A DNA stretch of 35,659 bases from Marinilabiliales bacterium (GTDB lineage: Bacteria > Bacteroidota > Bacteroidia > Bacteroidales > F082): assembly GCA_002869315.1 (NCBI GenBank), contig PKTD01000034.1:1-35659 (forward strand), read 5' to 3'. Below the pieces are notes generated by a model that was not told where the DNA came from, ran no database searches, and worked only from the letters and a program-made list of their open reading frames with translations. Position numbers and translations under genes: made by a program. Of the stretch, positions 2,944-31,099 are shown in pieces (within the stretch, counting starts at the first letter, position 1; every line of letters begins with the position of its first letter).

Positions 2944-4236
2944 ATGAGATACTTAACTATAAATAATGAATTGTTTATTGAAAATCGTAAGAAATTCAGC
3001 AAACAACTAAAGGAAAAATCCGTTGCCATTTTTTATTCGGCAGACCAGTGCCCAAGAAATGGAGATCAGTACCATACATTTCGCCAGCAAAGTGATTTTT
3101 TCTATTTATCAGGTATTGATCAGGAAAAAAGTATTCTTATAATAGCCCCTGATCATCCTGACCAATCACTAAGAGAATGTTTGTTTCTCATAAAGACAAA
3201 TGAAAAGATAGCTAAGTGGGAAGGTCATAAATATACCAAGCAAGAGGCGGAATCTACTTCAGGTATAAAATCAATATTTTGGTTAGACGAATTTGATTTC
3301 TATTTAAATGATATTCTTTCTGAGAGTTCCAATGTTTACTTAAACCGGAATGAATATCCCAAGTTTTTTCCTGAGGCAGAGGAAAAAAATCACAGAGAAG
3401 GTGATAGATTAAAATTAAAATTTCCTTTGCACAATTATTATAGAAGTGCACCTATACTTGCTACAATGAGAGGTGTAAAATCAGATATAGAAAAAAAACT
3501 TATCGAAAAGGCATGCGACATAACTGAAAAGGGATTCAGGCAGGTACTAAAAACAACTAAACCAGCTATGTTTGAGTTTGAGGTGCAGGCAGAAGTAGAT
3601 TATATTTTCACAAAAAACAGAGCGAACGGACATGGATATGCGCCCATAATTGCTAGCGGCAAAAATGCTTGTGTTTTGCATTATATTGAGAACAACGATG
3701 AGTGCAAAGATGGGGATTTGTTATTGATGGATTTTGGTGCTGAATATGCAAACTATACAGCCGACATGAGCCGAACTATTCCCGTAAACGGGAAATTTAC
3801 CGAAAGGCAAAAACAATGCTATAATGCTGTTTTAGATGTGTTTAAAGAACTTAAAAAACTTTATGTAAAAGGAAATTCCAGCACGCTTATTAACCAAAAG
3901 GCCAATGAGTTAATGGAAACGGAAATGGTAAAATTGGGTCTCTTTACGAAAAAAGACATTGAGATGCAGGATAAGGATAACCCTTTATACAAAAAGTATT
4001 TCATGCATGGAGTATGTCATCCAATTGGCCTTGATGTGCACGACATAGGATCGAAACATCGAATTTTTGAGCCGGGAATGATTTTAACCCTGGAACCAGG
4101 TATTTACATAGAAGAAGAGAATATTGGAATTAGAATTGAAAATGACATTTTAATTACTGATGGCGCTCCAGTGGACCTGATGAAAAATATACCAATTGAA
4201 GTAGATGAGATAGAGAATATGATGAATCAATGTTAA
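2944..4236 (+). CDS. Xaa-Pro aminopeptidase, M24B family (first copy)
   Basis: Cytoplasmic dinuclear metallopeptidase that removes N-terminal residues preceding proline. The protein is 430 residues from the ATG at 2944; the frame could begin six bases earlier at a TTG, but the ATG gives the ordinary start MRYLTINNELF. The N-terminal half is an AMP_N-type domain. The C-terminal pita-bread domain has all five metal ligands in order: Asp in LLLMDFGAEYANYTADMSRT (two Asp), His in HGVCHPIGLDVHDIG, Glu in LTLEPGIYI, and Glu in IGIRIENDILIT. It is a diverged paralogue of the gene at 6234-7622. There is no signal peptide. It converges on the Crp/Fnr gene with a 17-nt gap and no visible terminator. 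Confidence 0.93.
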   Translation: MRYLTINNELFIENRKKFSKQLKEKSVAIFYSADQCPRNGDQYHTFRQQSDFFYLSGIDQEKSILIIAPDHPDQSLRECLFLIKTNEKIAKWEGHKYTKQEAESTSGIKSIFWLDEFDFYLNDILSESSNVYLNRNEYPKFFPEAEEKNHREGDRLKLKFPLHNYYRSAPILATMRGVKSDIEKKLIEKACDITEKGFRQVLKTTKPAMFEFEVQAEVDYIFTKNRANGHGYAPIIASGKNACVLHYIENNDECKDGDLLLMDFGAEYANYTADMSRTIPVNGKFTERQKQCYNAVLDVFKELKKLYVKGNSSTLINQKANELMETEMVKLGLFTKKDIEMQDKDNPLYKKYFMHGVCHPIGLDVHDIGSKHRIFEPGMILTLEPGIYIEEENIGIRIENDILITDGAPVDLMKNIPIEVDEIENMMNQC

Positions 4237-4253
4237 GAATTTAAACTCCAACT

Positions 4254-4883
4254 TCATAATTTATCAAAATCCTTTATCTTCTTTCGGATCCTGCTTAAAC
4301 TTTCGGGAGTAATTCCTAAGTAGGAGGCCAGATATTTTTGCGGAATAAGTTCTGTTAGTTTTTCATTGGAAGTTATTAATTCCTTATAATAATCTTCAGC
4401 AGTTTTTGAATACATTTGTAGTTCTTTCATTTCCCTTTGAACATAGAGTAATTCAATCATTCTTCTTCCAATTCTATCAGCCATAGGTGCTGAATCATAT
4501 AGAGTTTGCATATCATTCCATGACATACGATATGTCTTGATAGAAGAAACAGCCTCAACATTAATTAATGAAGAAGTACGCGTAATAAATGAAGCATATG
4601 AATTGAAAACAGAAATAGGGAAATTGAAGCGGAGTGTATATTCCATTCCATTTTTTTGTTGAAAAATCCTACTAACACCTTCATACATAAAGTAAATGTA
4701 ATTTTCTACTTCTCCTGCCCGACTAATTAATTCATTTTTTGAGAATGATTTATAAAACAATCTCTTTTCAAACTCATCCCAGTCCAATTGGCTAATTGGC
4801 ACAACCGATTCGATGAAGGCCCTTATAATTCCAAGTGATTTTTCGTGCATCTGTCTAGTTAACAAACATACGAAATAAATCAT
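4254..4883 (-). CDS. Crp/Fnr-family transcriptional regulator
   Basis: Predicted DNA-binding regulator with an N-terminal cyclic-nucleotide-binding-like beta barrel (about residues 25-125; core SKNELISRAGEVENYIYFM then EGVSRIF) and a C-terminal helix-turn-helix, IPQKYLASYLGITPESLSRI, near residues 180-200. This is the architecture of the small Bacteroidota Crp-like regulators. No Cys cluster of the Fnr type is present, so it is not an Fe-S oxygen sensor. The longest start (4883) abuts the TAA of the upstream M23 gene with no spacer. The first 11 residues (MIYFVCLLTRQ) do not look like the family, so the ATG at 4850 (MHEKSLG) is a good alternative. It probably shares an operon with the M23 lipoprotein. 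Ligand and targets are unknown. Confidence 0.85.
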   Translation of the reverse strand: MIYFVCLLTRQMHEKSLGIIRAFIESVVPISQLDWDEFEKRLFYKSFSKNELISRAGEVENYIYFMYEGVSRIFQQKNGMEYTLRFNFPISVFNSYASFITRTSSLINVEAVSSIKTYRMSWNDMQTLYDSAPMADRIGRRMIELLYVQREMKELQMYSKTAEDYYKELITSNEKLTELIPQKYLASYLGITPESLSRIRKKIKDFDKL

Positions 4884-6002
4884 TTAGAAATCAATATTAA
4901 CTACGCTAAATTGCTCCATCATTGCATTTTGCACTTCCAAAGGAGACGATGGTCCAGTTGTCAAATCTCCGGTTTTAGTATAATTATTAAATACAAATGG
5001 AATACCATTAGATTTCCAGAAATCCTTTCCATCGGCTATATGGAAATGCAAATGTGGCGATGATGAATTTCCTGAATTCCCTAACAATGCCAGCGGTTGT
5101 CCCACTTCCACATTTTCTCCTTTTTCAACCATGAAACTGCCTGGAATTATATGACAATAAAATGCATATTGTTTCTCTGCCAATTTAATTACAAGGTAAT
5201 TACCTGCATATTCGTTATCCGAATTAAAAACCACATCCGCCTGAGAACCATGGTTTTCGGTGCGGCCATCAATTTTATCAATAATTTCACCATTAGCAAT
5301 CGCATATAAGGTATCGCCATAATTAAAATAAGATTCATTTGTATCAGGATTGCCGCTGTAAATATCGTTCCAATCGGGGGCAAACTCAATTTCATCAAAA
5401 GCAAAACGTTCTGGAGTATACATACTTCCATCCAAAAATATCAAAACATCGAAATGATATTCTGATGTTGACTGGTTTGCGAAAAATAAATTGTTCCCTT
5501 TGAGAGGTGGGTTAATTACCAAAGGTTTTATATCAGTTCGGGGATTGAACTCAGCTCCCTCAAAACTAACTGATTCATTATTAGTTGTATCAGTGAAATA
5601 TAACCGATTTACAATAGTTTCTGGAACAGTTTCGCTAATCGGAACTGGAACTTGAACCGACATATAATAGCTATCCAATTTATCCCATTGTAAAAATTCG
5701 TTAGGCTTAATTGGTTCCTTATAGACTCTTCCTAAATCAGATGCTTTTATCTCAAACAAAACTTTGTTGCTACTTTTGTCTATAGCTTCAATCTTGTCCA
5801 ACTTTAAATGGTCTTTTTCATATTCCCACGTTTTTATTGTGTAACCAATACGATTATATAACTCCGTATTATAAACTATTTCACTCTTGGCAATTTCAAT
5901 CTTAGCATTCGCATAAGGGTTGTCAGAATTTTCTTTTTTACATCCTACTATTGCCATGCTTAGTATTAAGCATAATACAACAAAACTTAATGATCTTTTC
6001 AT
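4884..6002 (-). CDS. M23-family (LytM-like) peptidase-domain lipoprotein
   Basis: Predicted envelope lipoprotein: a hydrophobic signal ends in a lipobox with Cys21 (MAIVGC), followed by KKENSD. Residues about 25-200 are a Bacteroidota-type unknown domain. The C-terminal region is LytM-like, with GDTLYAIANGEI, GNYLVIKL, FYCHIIPGS, VEVGQPLALLGNSGNSSSPH and the HLHFH metal/catalytic motif. The first metal-binding motif of active M23 enzymes (HxxxD) is not intact: the corresponding place reads RFAFDEIEF, with Asp but no His. It may therefore be an atypical or inactive peptidoglycan hydrolase that binds or regulates instead. It is followed with no gap by the Crp/Fnr gene, suggesting co-transcription. 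Confidence 0.85.
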   Translation of the reverse strand: MKRSLSFVVLCLILSMAIVGCKKENSDNPYANAKIEIAKSEIVYNTELYNRIGYTIKTWEYEKDHLKLDKIEAIDKSSNKVLFEIKASDLGRVYKEPIKPNEFLQWDKLDSYYMSVQVPVPISETVPETIVNRLYFTDTTNNESVSFEGAEFNPRTDIKPLVINPPLKGNNLFFANQSTSEYHFDVLIFLDGSMYTPERFAFDEIEFAPDWNDIYSGNPDTNESYFNYGDTLYAIANGEIIDKIDGRTENHGSQADVVFNSDNEYAGNYLVIKLAEKQYAFYCHIIPGSFMVEKGENVEVGQPLALLGNSGNSSSPHLHFHIADGKDFWKSNGIPFVFNNYTKTGDLTTGPSSPLEVQNAMMEQFSVVNIDF

Positions 6003-6233
6003 ATATGATTTATTTGCTGGTAAATATATTGGTAGTTAATTGGATTTTAATTAACCTATGTTAAGATTTGTAAATTTTCTAACAACTTATTATACCGGCA
6101 TAATATTAAAAGATATGCTGAATATAATAATTTCTAAATGAATTACATCTATTTATAACTATTATAATTCTTATTCATCCTCTTTTTTCTTAATTTTACA
6201 TCTTAAAAAATAAAACTCATAAAGAATAGAGAT

Positions 6234-7622
6234 ATGTTTAAGAAAGAAGTATATGTTGAAAGAAGAAATCGTTTAAAAAAAGAAATTAAATCAGGTATCG
6301 CCCTGTTTTTAGGAAATGTTGATGCTGCATTTAATTACCCAGCTAACCAATATCATTTCCGTCAGGATAGTCATTTTTTATACTTTTTTGGTTTACAAAA
6401 CCCAGGTTTTGCAGGAGTAATTGATTTTGACAATGACAAAGACTATGTTTTTGGAAACGACTTCGATATTGACGATATAATTTGGATGGGTGTTCAACCA
6501 AAAGTTTCTGATCTGGCAGCTAAGGCTGGTGTTGAAAATACAGCGCCATATAAAGAACTTGCACAGATTATTGCCAAAGCGAAATATGAAGGAAAAAAGG
6601 TTCATTATCTGCCTCCTTATAGAGGAGAAACAATAATTGAATTATCAAATTTATTAGGTATAGCTAATGCAGATGTTAAACCGGGTGTATCAGTAGAACT
6701 TATTAGTGCAGTTGTTAAATTGAAGGAGATAAAAGATGATTATGAGATTGCTGAAATTGAAAAGGCAGTCGACATAGCTTATGAAATGCATACAACTTCC
6801 ATGAAAATGGCCATGCCCGGAACTGTTGAACAGGAAATTGCAGGCACCATTGAAGGAATTTCTCTGGCAAAAGGCGGACCGGTTTCGTTTCCAATTATAT
6901 TAAGTCAGGATGGGCAAACTCTGCACAATCATAATCATGACAATGTTTTAGAACTTGGCAGGATGATGGTTACTGATGGAGGAGCAGAAACACATGAGAA
7001 TTATGCAAGTGATATAACCAGAACAGTTCCTGTTGGAGGAAAATTCAATGAGCGTCAGGCAGAAATTTATCAAATAGTTTTGGATGCTAATATGGCTGCC
7101 ATTGAAGCTATTAAACCGGGTGTTAAATACCGCGACATTCATTTCCTTGCCGCAAGAGTTATAATTGAAGGACTAAAAAAGGCCGGTATAATGAAAGGCG
7201 ATACTGATGAAGCCTTAAAAGCAGAAGCACATACTTTATTTATGCCTCACGGACTCGGGCATCAAATGGGAATGGACGTGCACGACATGGAAGGTTTAGG
7301 AGAAGATTATGTAGGTTATGATGAAAATACTAAGCGTGCAACAACTTTCGGTACAGCCTATCTCCGTCTGGGAAAAGAATTAAAAACAGGTATGGTTCTT
7401 ACTGTTGAACCAGGAATTTATTTTATCCCCGACCTAATAGATCAGTTTAAAGCAGAAGGAAAATTTACTGATTTTGTTAATTACGATAAAGTTGAAACAT
7501 ATAAAGATTTTGGTGGCATAAGAATTGAAGATGATATTTTGGTTACCGAAACAGGATACAGGGTTCTTGGTAAACCAATACCAAAGACTATTGCTGAAGT
7601 TGAAGCAGTAATGAATAGTTAA
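6234..7622 (+). CDS. Xaa-Pro aminopeptidase, M24B family (second copy)
   Basis: A 462-residue cytoplasmic proline-specific aminopeptidase. Residues about 1-150 form the AMP_N domain (MFKKEVYVERRNRLKKE, then YHFRQDSHFLYFFGL). The catalytic half has the five metal ligands: Asp-Asp in MVTDGGAETHENYASDITRT, His in MPHGLGHQMGMDVHDM, Glu in LTVEPGIYF and Glu in GGIRIEDDILVT. The ATG at 6234 begins at the expected place. It resembles the gene at 2944-4236 in fold and motifs but differs clearly in sequence and in a longer insertion before the Glu motif, so the two are old paralogues, not a recent duplication. It is monocistronic and ends in a shared terminator with the convergent gene. Confidence 0.94.
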   Translation: MFKKEVYVERRNRLKKEIKSGIALFLGNVDAAFNYPANQYHFRQDSHFLYFFGLQNPGFAGVIDFDNDKDYVFGNDFDIDDIIWMGVQPKVSDLAAKAGVENTAPYKELAQIIAKAKYEGKKVHYLPPYRGETIIELSNLLGIANADVKPGVSVELISAVVKLKEIKDDYEIAEIEKAVDIAYEMHTTSMKMAMPGTVEQEIAGTIEGISLAKGGPVSFPIILSQDGQTLHNHNHDNVLELGRMMVTDGGAETHENYASDITRTVPVGGKFNERQAEIYQIVLDANMAAIEAIKPGVKYRDIHFLAARVIIEGLKKAGIMKGDTDEALKAEAHTLFMPHGLGHQMGMDVHDMEGLGEDYVGYDENTKRATTFGTAYLRLGKELKTGMVLTVEPGIYFIPDLIDQFKAEGKFTDFVNYDKVETYKDFGGIRIEDDILVTETGYRVLGKPIPKTIAEVEAVMNS

Positions 7623-29444: not shown

Positions 29445-29609
29445 TGATTTAATTAACAGACAATTAAGCACATAGCTTTATTAAAAAGCACTTTAAATAG
29501 TCGGGATATGTAAAAAATATCGAATAAATTTACTACTTTTACGCCCCTGAAAAATCAGAGGGATTTAATAAATATTTAACATAATTGAATTAATTAATTT
29601 ACAACAAAC

Positions 29610-29777
29610 ATGAATAAAATTAAAGTAGCTAATCCGGTAGTTGAACTTGAGGGTGATTAAATGACCAAGGACCTTGCTTTAATTATTCACAGAAGTGAAG
29701 TATCGTGCGAGCACTATTTAAACACTGAAGACTTTCTTTCAGCACTTGACGAGAGGCTAAAAGCAAAGTTATCATAA
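29610..29777 (+). pseudogene. icd: Internally deleted NADP-isocitrate dehydrogenase remnant
   Basis: The first 16 codons read MNKIKVANPVVELEGD, the usual N-terminus of the eukaryotic-like (type II) NADP-isocitrate dehydrogenase, where the family continues E-M-T-R. Here a TAA (29658-29660) follows, then in the same frame 38 codons that match the C-terminus of the same enzyme: MTKDLALIIHR, then EHYLNTEDFLSALDERLKAK, ending at a TAA (29775-29777). The full enzyme has about 400 residues, so roughly 350 codons are missing, in a multiple of three. Both flanks of the lost segment would carry Met-Thr (ATGACC), so a deletion between short direct repeats is a plausible mechanism. The remnant lies 14 nt before gltA, and icd next to gltA is a known arrangement in Bacteroidales. 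No enzyme activity is possible. The upstream ORF or leader may still affect gltA expression. Confidence 0.88.
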
Positions 29778-29791
29778 AAAACCAAATTAAA

Positions 29792-31099
29792 ATGTCGAAT
29801 TTAAAAGAAAGATTATACAAAAAAATAGAGGCACATCGTCCACGTATAAAACGTTTACTTGATGAACACGGGGAAACCGTTGTTAACGACGTAACTGTTC
29901 AGCAAATTATCGGTGGAATGAGGGGTATTAAGAGTTTAATTACTGATATCTCATACCTTGACCCTTACGAGGGAATAAGATACAGAGGATATACTCTTCC
30001 TGAGGTATTTGACAAATTACCAAAACCAAAGGGAGCTAAAATGCCTTACGTTGAAGGTCTCTTTTATCTATTGCTAACAGGTGACATACCAACAGAAGAT
30101 GAGGTATCGGAACTTACTTACGAATGTGTTTTCCGTCGTCAACTTCCAAAATATGTTTACGAAGTTATTGATGCTTTCCCAAATAACAGCCATCCGATGG
30201 TTATTCTTTCTGCCGCAGTGATGTCTATGCAGAGAGAATCTATTTTCAATTTGAAATACCAGCGTGGTATGGACAAAACTGATTATTGGGATCCAACCTT
30301 CGAAGACGCATTGAACTTAATGTCGAAACTGCCTGTTATAGGGGCCCATATCTATAATAAACTTTATGCAAAACGAAGTAATGTTTATCAGGATCCTACT
30401 CTTGATTTCGGCGGAAACTTTGCATATATGATGGGTAAAGAACTCCCTTATGATGATGTTTCAAGAATGTACTTTATTTTACATGCTGATCACGAAAGTG
30501 GAAATGTTAGTGCGCATACTGGTCACCTTATTGCCAGTTCATTATCCGATGTTTATTATTCAATATCAGGTATGATTAACGGACTTGCCGGGCCGCTGCA
30601 CGGATTGGCTAATCAGGAGGTTCTGCGTTGGATACAGGATTTAAGAGCAAAAATGGGAGACAAAGTTCCAAGTGAAGATGTGATGAAGAAATTTGTTTGG
30701 GATACTCTGGAAAGCGGACAGGTAGTTCCAGGCTTCGGACATGCAGTACTTCGTAAAACAGACCCAAGATATCAGATCCAAAGAGATTTTAGTCTTGAAC
30801 ATTTTCCTGAGGATGAACTGTTTAAATATGTTGATATGCTTTACAAAGTTGTCCCTCCAATATTGCAGAAACAGGGGAAAGCAAAAAATCCATGGCCAAA
30901 TGTTGATGCACAATCGGGAGTTGTTCAATGGCAATATGGTGTAACCCAATATGACTATTATACAGTTCTTTTCTCAATAGGAAGAGCATTAGGTGTTTTA
31001 GCCAATATTATTTGGGACAGAGCATTAGGCTTCCCGTTGGAAAGACCAAAATCTATTACAACTGATATGCTTGAACAATTGGTTGGAATAAAGAAATAA
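29792..31099 (+). CDS. gltA: Citrate synthase, mitochondrial-like type
   Basis: A 435-residue enzyme condensing oxaloacetate and acetyl-CoA to citrate. It is of the eukaryotic-mitochondrial type, not the hexameric E. coli type: LHADHESGNVSAHTGHLIAS and INGLAGPLHGLANQEVLRW are nearly the mitochondrial sequence. Catalytic residues are H270 (GPLHGLAN), H317 (GFGHAVLRKTDPRY) and D372 (NVDAQSGV). No signal peptide is present; length is normal and the frame is intact. It lies 14 nt after the icd remnant, so it is probably transcribed with it, and ends in a strong terminator. With icd lost at this site, citrate could feed only aconitase products or biosynthesis unless another icd exists elsewhere. 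Confidence 0.96.
   Translation: MSNLKERLYKKIEAHRPRIKRLLDEHGETVVNDVTVQQIIGGMRGIKSLITDISYLDPYEGIRYRGYTLPEVFDKLPKPKGAKMPYVEGLFYLLLTGDIPTEDEVSELTYECVFRRQLPKYVYEVIDAFPNNSHPMVILSAAVMSMQRESIFNLKYQRGMDKTDYWDPTFEDALNLMSKLPVIGAHIYNKLYAKRSNVYQDPTLDFGGNFAYMMGKELPYDDVSRMYFILHADHESGNVSAHTGHLIASSLSDVYYSISGMINGLAGPLHGLANQEVLRWIQDLRAKMGDKVPSEDVMKKFVWDTLESGQVVPGFGHAVLRKTDPRYQIQRDFSLEHFPEDELFKYVDMLYKVVPPILQKQGKAKNPWPNVDAQSGVVQWQYGVTQYDYYTVLFSIGRALGVLANIIWDRALGFPLERPKSITTDMLEQLVGIKK

Follow-up and report, generated by a model that had tools for sequence, protein, structure and literature searches.

The 168-bp remnant of a type II NADP-dependent isocitrate dehydrogenase gene (icd) that lies just before the citrate synthase gene gltA in a 35,659-nucleotide contig of a Marinilabiliales bacterium is very probably the footprint of a non-orthologous replacement of isocitrate dehydrogenase (IDH) after a deletion between short repeats, and not the sign of a broken TCA cycle. 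This contig, analysed at its full length and here called the window, is contig C278 of bin G000 (3.29 Mb in 324 contigs, 87.3% complete and 2.7% contaminated). The original prediction had read the scar as the record of a lost TCA enzyme. The loss of type II icd stood, whereas the loss of the TCA step was not supported, since the bin carries a monomeric IDH gene on contig C211 and aconitase-family genes. The type II gene is gone, and IDH as an enzyme has probably not been lost. The features of the locus are as follows.

29534..29541, + strand: promoter-like box in the leader, TACTTTTA (leader alignment with the nearest genome, G002, over 144 aligned positions)
29610..29657, + strand: 5′ piece of the scar, codons 1-16 of type II NADP-IDH, MNKIKVANPVVELEGD (translation, alignment to G002, shuffles)
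29658..29660, + strand: in-frame TAA at the join (translation; Glu, GAA or GAG, in the intact relatives listed)
29659..29666, + strand: AAATGACC, the remaining copy of a short direct repeat (comparison with the repeats of G002 icd)
29661..29774, + strand: 3′ piece of the scar, the final 38 codons of type II NADP-IDH, MTKDL...KLS (translation, TIGR00127, alignment, shuffles)
29775..29777, + strand: native icd stop codon, TAA (translation)
29792..31099, + strand: gltA, citrate synthase, intact, 435 aa, 14 bp 3′ of the scar

Translation of positions 29610-29777 gave MNKIKVANPVVELEGD, a stop, MTKDLALIIHRSEVSCEHYLNTEDFLSALDERLKAKLS and a second stop, with both pieces in one frame over 168 bp. When this translation was compared with the NCBIfam profile TIGR00127 (X at the inner stop), two matching stretches were found, the better of which (E 3.9e-12, 45.4 bits) aligned residues 17-54 with profile positions 370-407 of 409, and both the N- and the C-terminal ends aligned to type II NADP-IDH. 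The score is far below the curated cut-off (45.4 versus 397 bits), which identifies a remnant rather than a member of the family. Against the intact Icd of G002, identity was 85% over residues 1-20 (stop included) and 84% over residues 370-407. When the 330 bases ahead of gltA were shuffled 200 times, no shuffle attained the local alignment score of the C end (152) or that of the N end (85). Upstream, TACTTTTA is a putative promoter box, similar to the TAnnTTTG box of Bacteroidetes.

Alignment of the locus to relatives with an icd-gltA pair, which the original prediction had proposed as a check, showed that G002 keeps the whole gene at the position of the scar, with an intact 407-codon icd directly before gltA (contig PKTA01000017, locus L033). 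The two genomes are sisters in the gltA tree (support 100/99); their gltA genes are 98% identical as protein and 90.5% as DNA, and the leader upstream of the scar shares 86% identity with that of the intact G002 icd. More widely, icd was found directly upstream of gltA in 32 of 80 fetched gltA loci, the nearest relative included, and 7 of the 80 end too near gltA for the upstream gene to be judged.

The icd of G002 carries the 7-bp sequence AAATGAC at gene positions 50 and 1106. The distance between the copies is 1,056 bp, which is divisible by three, and subtracting it from the G002 gene (1224 bp including the stop) gives exactly the 168 bp of the scar. Many other relatives have the 8-bp AAATGACC on both sides, the genes compared at the join and the repeats being only those with both the GDEMT and the MTKDL motifs. 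Among 200,000 random deletions of G002 icd with breaks within positions 20-200 and 1000-1200, 0.13% had junction homology of at least 7 bp. Thus, the junction sits at a direct repeat and the repeat-to-repeat deletion reproduces the length of the remnant. The deletion alone would yield an in-frame GDE-MTKDL fusion, and the TAA needs one further base change, from GAA to TAA. We therefore confirmed what had been predicted of the scar itself, namely that it consists of the two ends of type II icd with a TAA at the join (TIGR00127 and the G002 alignment agree), that it lies at the native icd-gltA site, that about 350 codons are missing (352 net against the sister gene) and that recombination between short repeats at Met-Thr codons can account for it. 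We propose that the ancestral locus had icd as the first gene of an icd-gltA pair, as in G002, that a single in-frame deletion between AAATGAC(C) direct repeats would have removed the icd body, and that one additional nonsense change would have made the TAA. The leader and the start of gltA would survive such a deletion, so that the old icd promoter may continue to drive citrate synthase expression.

A join at a short repeat could also arise during data production, if the population had an intact icd and the contig misjoined its ends. Chimeras formed during amplification likewise tend to have microhomology junctions, which in this respect count for an artefact, as do the division of the bin into 324 contigs and its larger number of lone in-frame stops than in controls (see below). 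However, assembly k-mers are much longer than a 7-bp repeat, which counts against a misjoin. Moreover, a profile search of the bin at E 0.001 found no intact or partial icd body elsewhere, the 3′ piece of the scar being the sole TIGR00127 match, and type II icd over the cut-off was found in 0 of 21 family genomes with monomeric IDH, this bin included. Assembly collapse is therefore unlikely, and we consider an artefact of assembly or chimerism as a whole very unlikely.

We further considered whether the scar has been retained for a function as a leader, in which the 38-codon frame is translated from a TAAATG stop-start and couples translation to gltA. The 3′ piece opens with its own ATG immediately behind the TAA, and 14 bp separate its end from gltA; the leader is conserved with G002. 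However, in three congeneric genomes that lack icd (G001, G003 and G004), no icd frame can be recognised ahead of gltA, and their likeness to the scar extends at most to the final bases and the spacer, so that the coupling looks dispensable; we regard this explanation as extremely unlikely. Searches of the window against RNA families and against a phage collection gave no match.

Icd remnants before gltA were also searched for at 24 loci beyond the window's own (two sets of 12), chosen as having no type II icd there. Only G013, a genome of another genus with monomeric IDH, gave a clear result: a different icd 3′ scrap (locus L131; KVFKQENYLHNEDFLNA / NYLHNEDFLNA, about 105-25 bp before gltA) with a score of 58, reached in 0 of 200 shuffles. 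At the remaining tested loci no icd scrap was clear, the weak scores being those of the C end at L222 (reached in 2 of 100 shuffles) and of the N end in G003 and G004 (7 of 200 each). Over the last 45 bases before gltA, G001 shared 30 with the scar, G003 26 and G004 25, which was reached in 0, 1 and 3 of 2000 shuffles, respectively, and 8 further loci showed no match; this likeness may reflect the operon spacer alone. In G011 (locus L207, G011:C201, about 3700-6400), a near-full-length icd adjoins gltA and both genes carry many stops and frame changes, while the frames upstream are intact (DnaJ-like and PspC-like by reading of the sequence). G013 and G011 would represent further stages in such a loss.

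The substitutions in the scar were then compared with those of its sister. Polarised crudely by the majority of nine outgroup loci, which left 1 scar site and 5 gltA sites unassigned, the ratio of non-synonymous to synonymous changes was 7:7 on the scar branch and 4:7 on the G002 branch, with gltA at 7:60 and 5:47 on the same two branches. A conservation test did not set the scar apart from intact genes: it had 3 residues unseen elsewhere, and 10 of 44 distinct intact genes had at least as many. The substitution pattern of the scar is not clearly neutral, and the scar could be very young.

For the replacement, the relevant gene is on contig C211 of the bin, which encodes a full-length monomeric IDH (PF03971 positions 1-734, 1,283.6 bits), both halves of which match TIGR00178. 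The proposed search for an intact icd of either family elsewhere in the genome found no type II gene and one gene for the unrelated monomeric IDH. Its reading frame is interrupted by one TAA at codon 288 (locus L003, G000:C211 1667-1669, - strand), a codon that in 13 relatives is GAA in 4 (three of them close) and AAA, AGT, TCC, TCA, GAG or CAA in the others. Apart from the stop, only 2 of the 292 columns invariant in the 13 relatives are changed. The TAA may stem from an error in the consensus or mark a recent null allele, and because of it the activity of the monomeric IDH of this bin, as predicted from its sequence, is not assured. The tetranucleotide value of C211 was 0.136, at the upper end of the bin range of 0.078-0.139 (17 chunks, themselves in the reference), and the monomeric-IDH regions of G003, G004, G013 and G064 gave 0.29-0.47, that of G001 0.162 and a region of G002 0.118. 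C211 fits the bin, and origin from a very near relative remains compatible with these values.

Within the 8-13 kb compared, the monomeric IDH genes of G001, G003, G004, G013 and G064 had no neighbour in common with the gene on C211; a kinase-type neighbour on C211 had its best match in G003/G004, at 59%. In the tree of monomeric IDH, the G000 gene lies outside a group with 97/96 support that joins the other members of its genus and two genomes of another genus. Taken together, synteny and tree position do not support long co-inheritance of this gene with icd. The loss of icd was probably tolerated because the lineage would already have had the monomeric IDH, of an unrelated family and with the same reaction, elsewhere in its genome. 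A further IDH gene could also be missing from the incomplete bin (87%, 324 contigs).

The only PF00180 member of the bin, an intact protein of 398 aa (locus L001, G000:C157:3157-4350), was most like the homoisocitrate dehydrogenase AksF and scored below every NCBIfam cut-off. Decarboxylating dehydrogenases of this type are widespread in relatives of both IDH kinds. The gene was rejected as a specific replacement for icd, since it is 94% identical in G002, which has an intact icd, and since many type II genomes have one.

We found that the two kinds of IDH have a complementary distribution in the family, as in a non-orthologous replacement, relatedness being uncorrected. Over the cut-offs, 48 of 173 family genomes had type II and 21, G000 included, monomeric IDH, and none had both; in the remaining 104, the decayed G011 among them, neither kind was found, many genomes being incomplete. 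The hypergeometric value for this lack of overlap was 0.0006, which ignores relatedness and is uncorrected for incompleteness. In a set of 61 genomes (G000 and 60 relatives), the counts over cut-off were 28 for type II, 13 for monomeric and 0 for both. The kinds also alternate at short range: the genus of the window has type II in G002 and monomeric IDH in G000, G001, G003 and G004, and genus g3 has type II in three genomes and monomeric IDH in nine. On the gltA tree (58 rows, 57 labelled), the IDH kind switches at least 8 times; this is a gene tree rather than a species tree, covers part of the family's genomes, and leaves out type II loci L004, L008, L010, L022 and L028, which have no gltA within. 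A sign test on independent pairs was dropped as circular, the rows having been picked for having one IDH kind. The monomeric IDH genes of the family fall on two well-supported sides of their tree, and likely come from more than one source. They adjoin gltA in divergent orientation in several g3 genomes and one g11 genome. On three Bacteroidales contigs, L067 (end only), L080 and L090, the gene immediately preceding gltA, in the same orientation, is a monomeric IDH, which there occupies the position of icd in relatives. Given the monomeric IDH gene in the bin and two kinds that were not found together in 173 genomes, replacement is more likely than loss.

Lone in-frame stops were scanned by eye in 240.7 kb of the bin (the window, part of C211 and 14 other stretches), a kinase-rich, non-random sample drawn mostly from contigs of a kinase search. 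Five further mid-gene stops were found (L196:7268, L198:19005, L198:11229, L200:7962 and L206:2841). In three of the five, the domains that Pfam assigned before and after the stop belong to a single usual architecture, and in a fourth, a gene of glutamine-synthetase type, one domain spans the stop; L206:2841 and, outside the five, L203:6475 had no Pfam match, and L194:8088 is probably a gene end. Outside the window, the bin had lone stops in at least 4 other domain-bearing genes in 205 kb, versus one clear case in 867 kb of control sequence (86 loci, some overlapping, judged by eye without Pfam). The other control stops read as gene borders, antisense frames or unclear. The clear control case is the citrate synthase gene of L055, with an in-frame TAG at L055:5982; the leader sequence of L055 is the same as that of L132, from G026, and neither IDH kind was found in this relative. 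The excess of lone stops in the bin suggests consensus errors or a batch of young nulls, and for this reason the stop at the join of the scar is not necessarily an old change.

The two stops bear on the possibility of a true loss of IDH, in which icd was deleted, the monomeric IDH is a fresh pseudogene and no 2-oxoglutarate is made through either known NADP-IDH, so that the cell relies on imported glutamate, the AksF-like protein of C157 or reductive carboxylation of succinyl-CoA. Besides the stops in both IDH genes of the bin, this possibility draws on the remaining PF00180 member, which is intact, nearest to homoisocitrate dehydrogenase and under the cut-offs. It draws too on the remark that 2-ketoglutarate made by Icd has not been reported in anaerobically grown Bacteroides (PMC11304471), from which the step is perhaps dispensable in anaerobes. 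However, the monomeric IDH is otherwise fully constrained, the lone stops in other genes of the bin point to consensus errors, and the AksF-like gene is no specific substitute. We therefore consider a true loss unlikely. A version in which both NADP-IDHs have only just been lost, citrate synthase and the aconitase-family genes are kept, and the AksF-like protein or imported 2-oxoglutarate or glutamate fills in, is quite unlikely. Under the preferred explanation, replacement of type II by monomeric IDH, a missing icd beside gltA must not be taken as an incomplete TCA cycle.

In Bacteroides fragilis, AcnA, Icd and citrate synthase have the consecutive locus tags BF638R_3569, BF638R_3568 and BF638R_3567, as given in a legend of PMC11304471. 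This acnA-icd-gltA arrangement is like the proposed ancestor of the scarred locus in having icd beside citrate synthase. It differs in that B. fragilis has icd, whereas here only the icd ends are left and the aconitase-family matches of the bin lie on contigs other than that of the scar. Monomeric NADP-IDH is known in Corynebacterium and Azotobacter (PMC4360740, PMC10574006) and is less than 10% identical to other IDHs (PMC4360740). Full-length homologues (TIGR00178 / PF03971) are present in this bin and in G001, G003 and G004, the copy of the bin differing by its one in-frame stop. Some organisms keep two IDH kinds, such as Mycobacterium tuberculosis with types II and III (PMC10574006), in contrast to this family, where 0 of 173 genomes were found with both kinds examined here. 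Among the matches listed in our literature search, in which subscription journals are thinly covered, no title or abstract opening concerned IDH replacement in Bacteroidales.

Replacement of genes is a known and ordinary process, and the scar is a new, clean case of it in an uncultured group with frequent swaps. In non-orthologous gene displacement, an unrelated protein takes over one reaction of central metabolism. The present case is like this, with two unrelated proteins for one reaction that are mutually exclusive in the genomes examined. With a readable scar, 0 of 173 genomes found to carry both kinds and at least eight switches of kind on the gltA tree, the family offers a usable system for studying the timing and causes of swaps in a central NADPH-producing enzyme. 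Enzyme replacement is usually inferred from presence and absence; here, traces of the displaced gene can still be seen, in this genome as a scar where icd originally lay and in G011 as a decayed icd.
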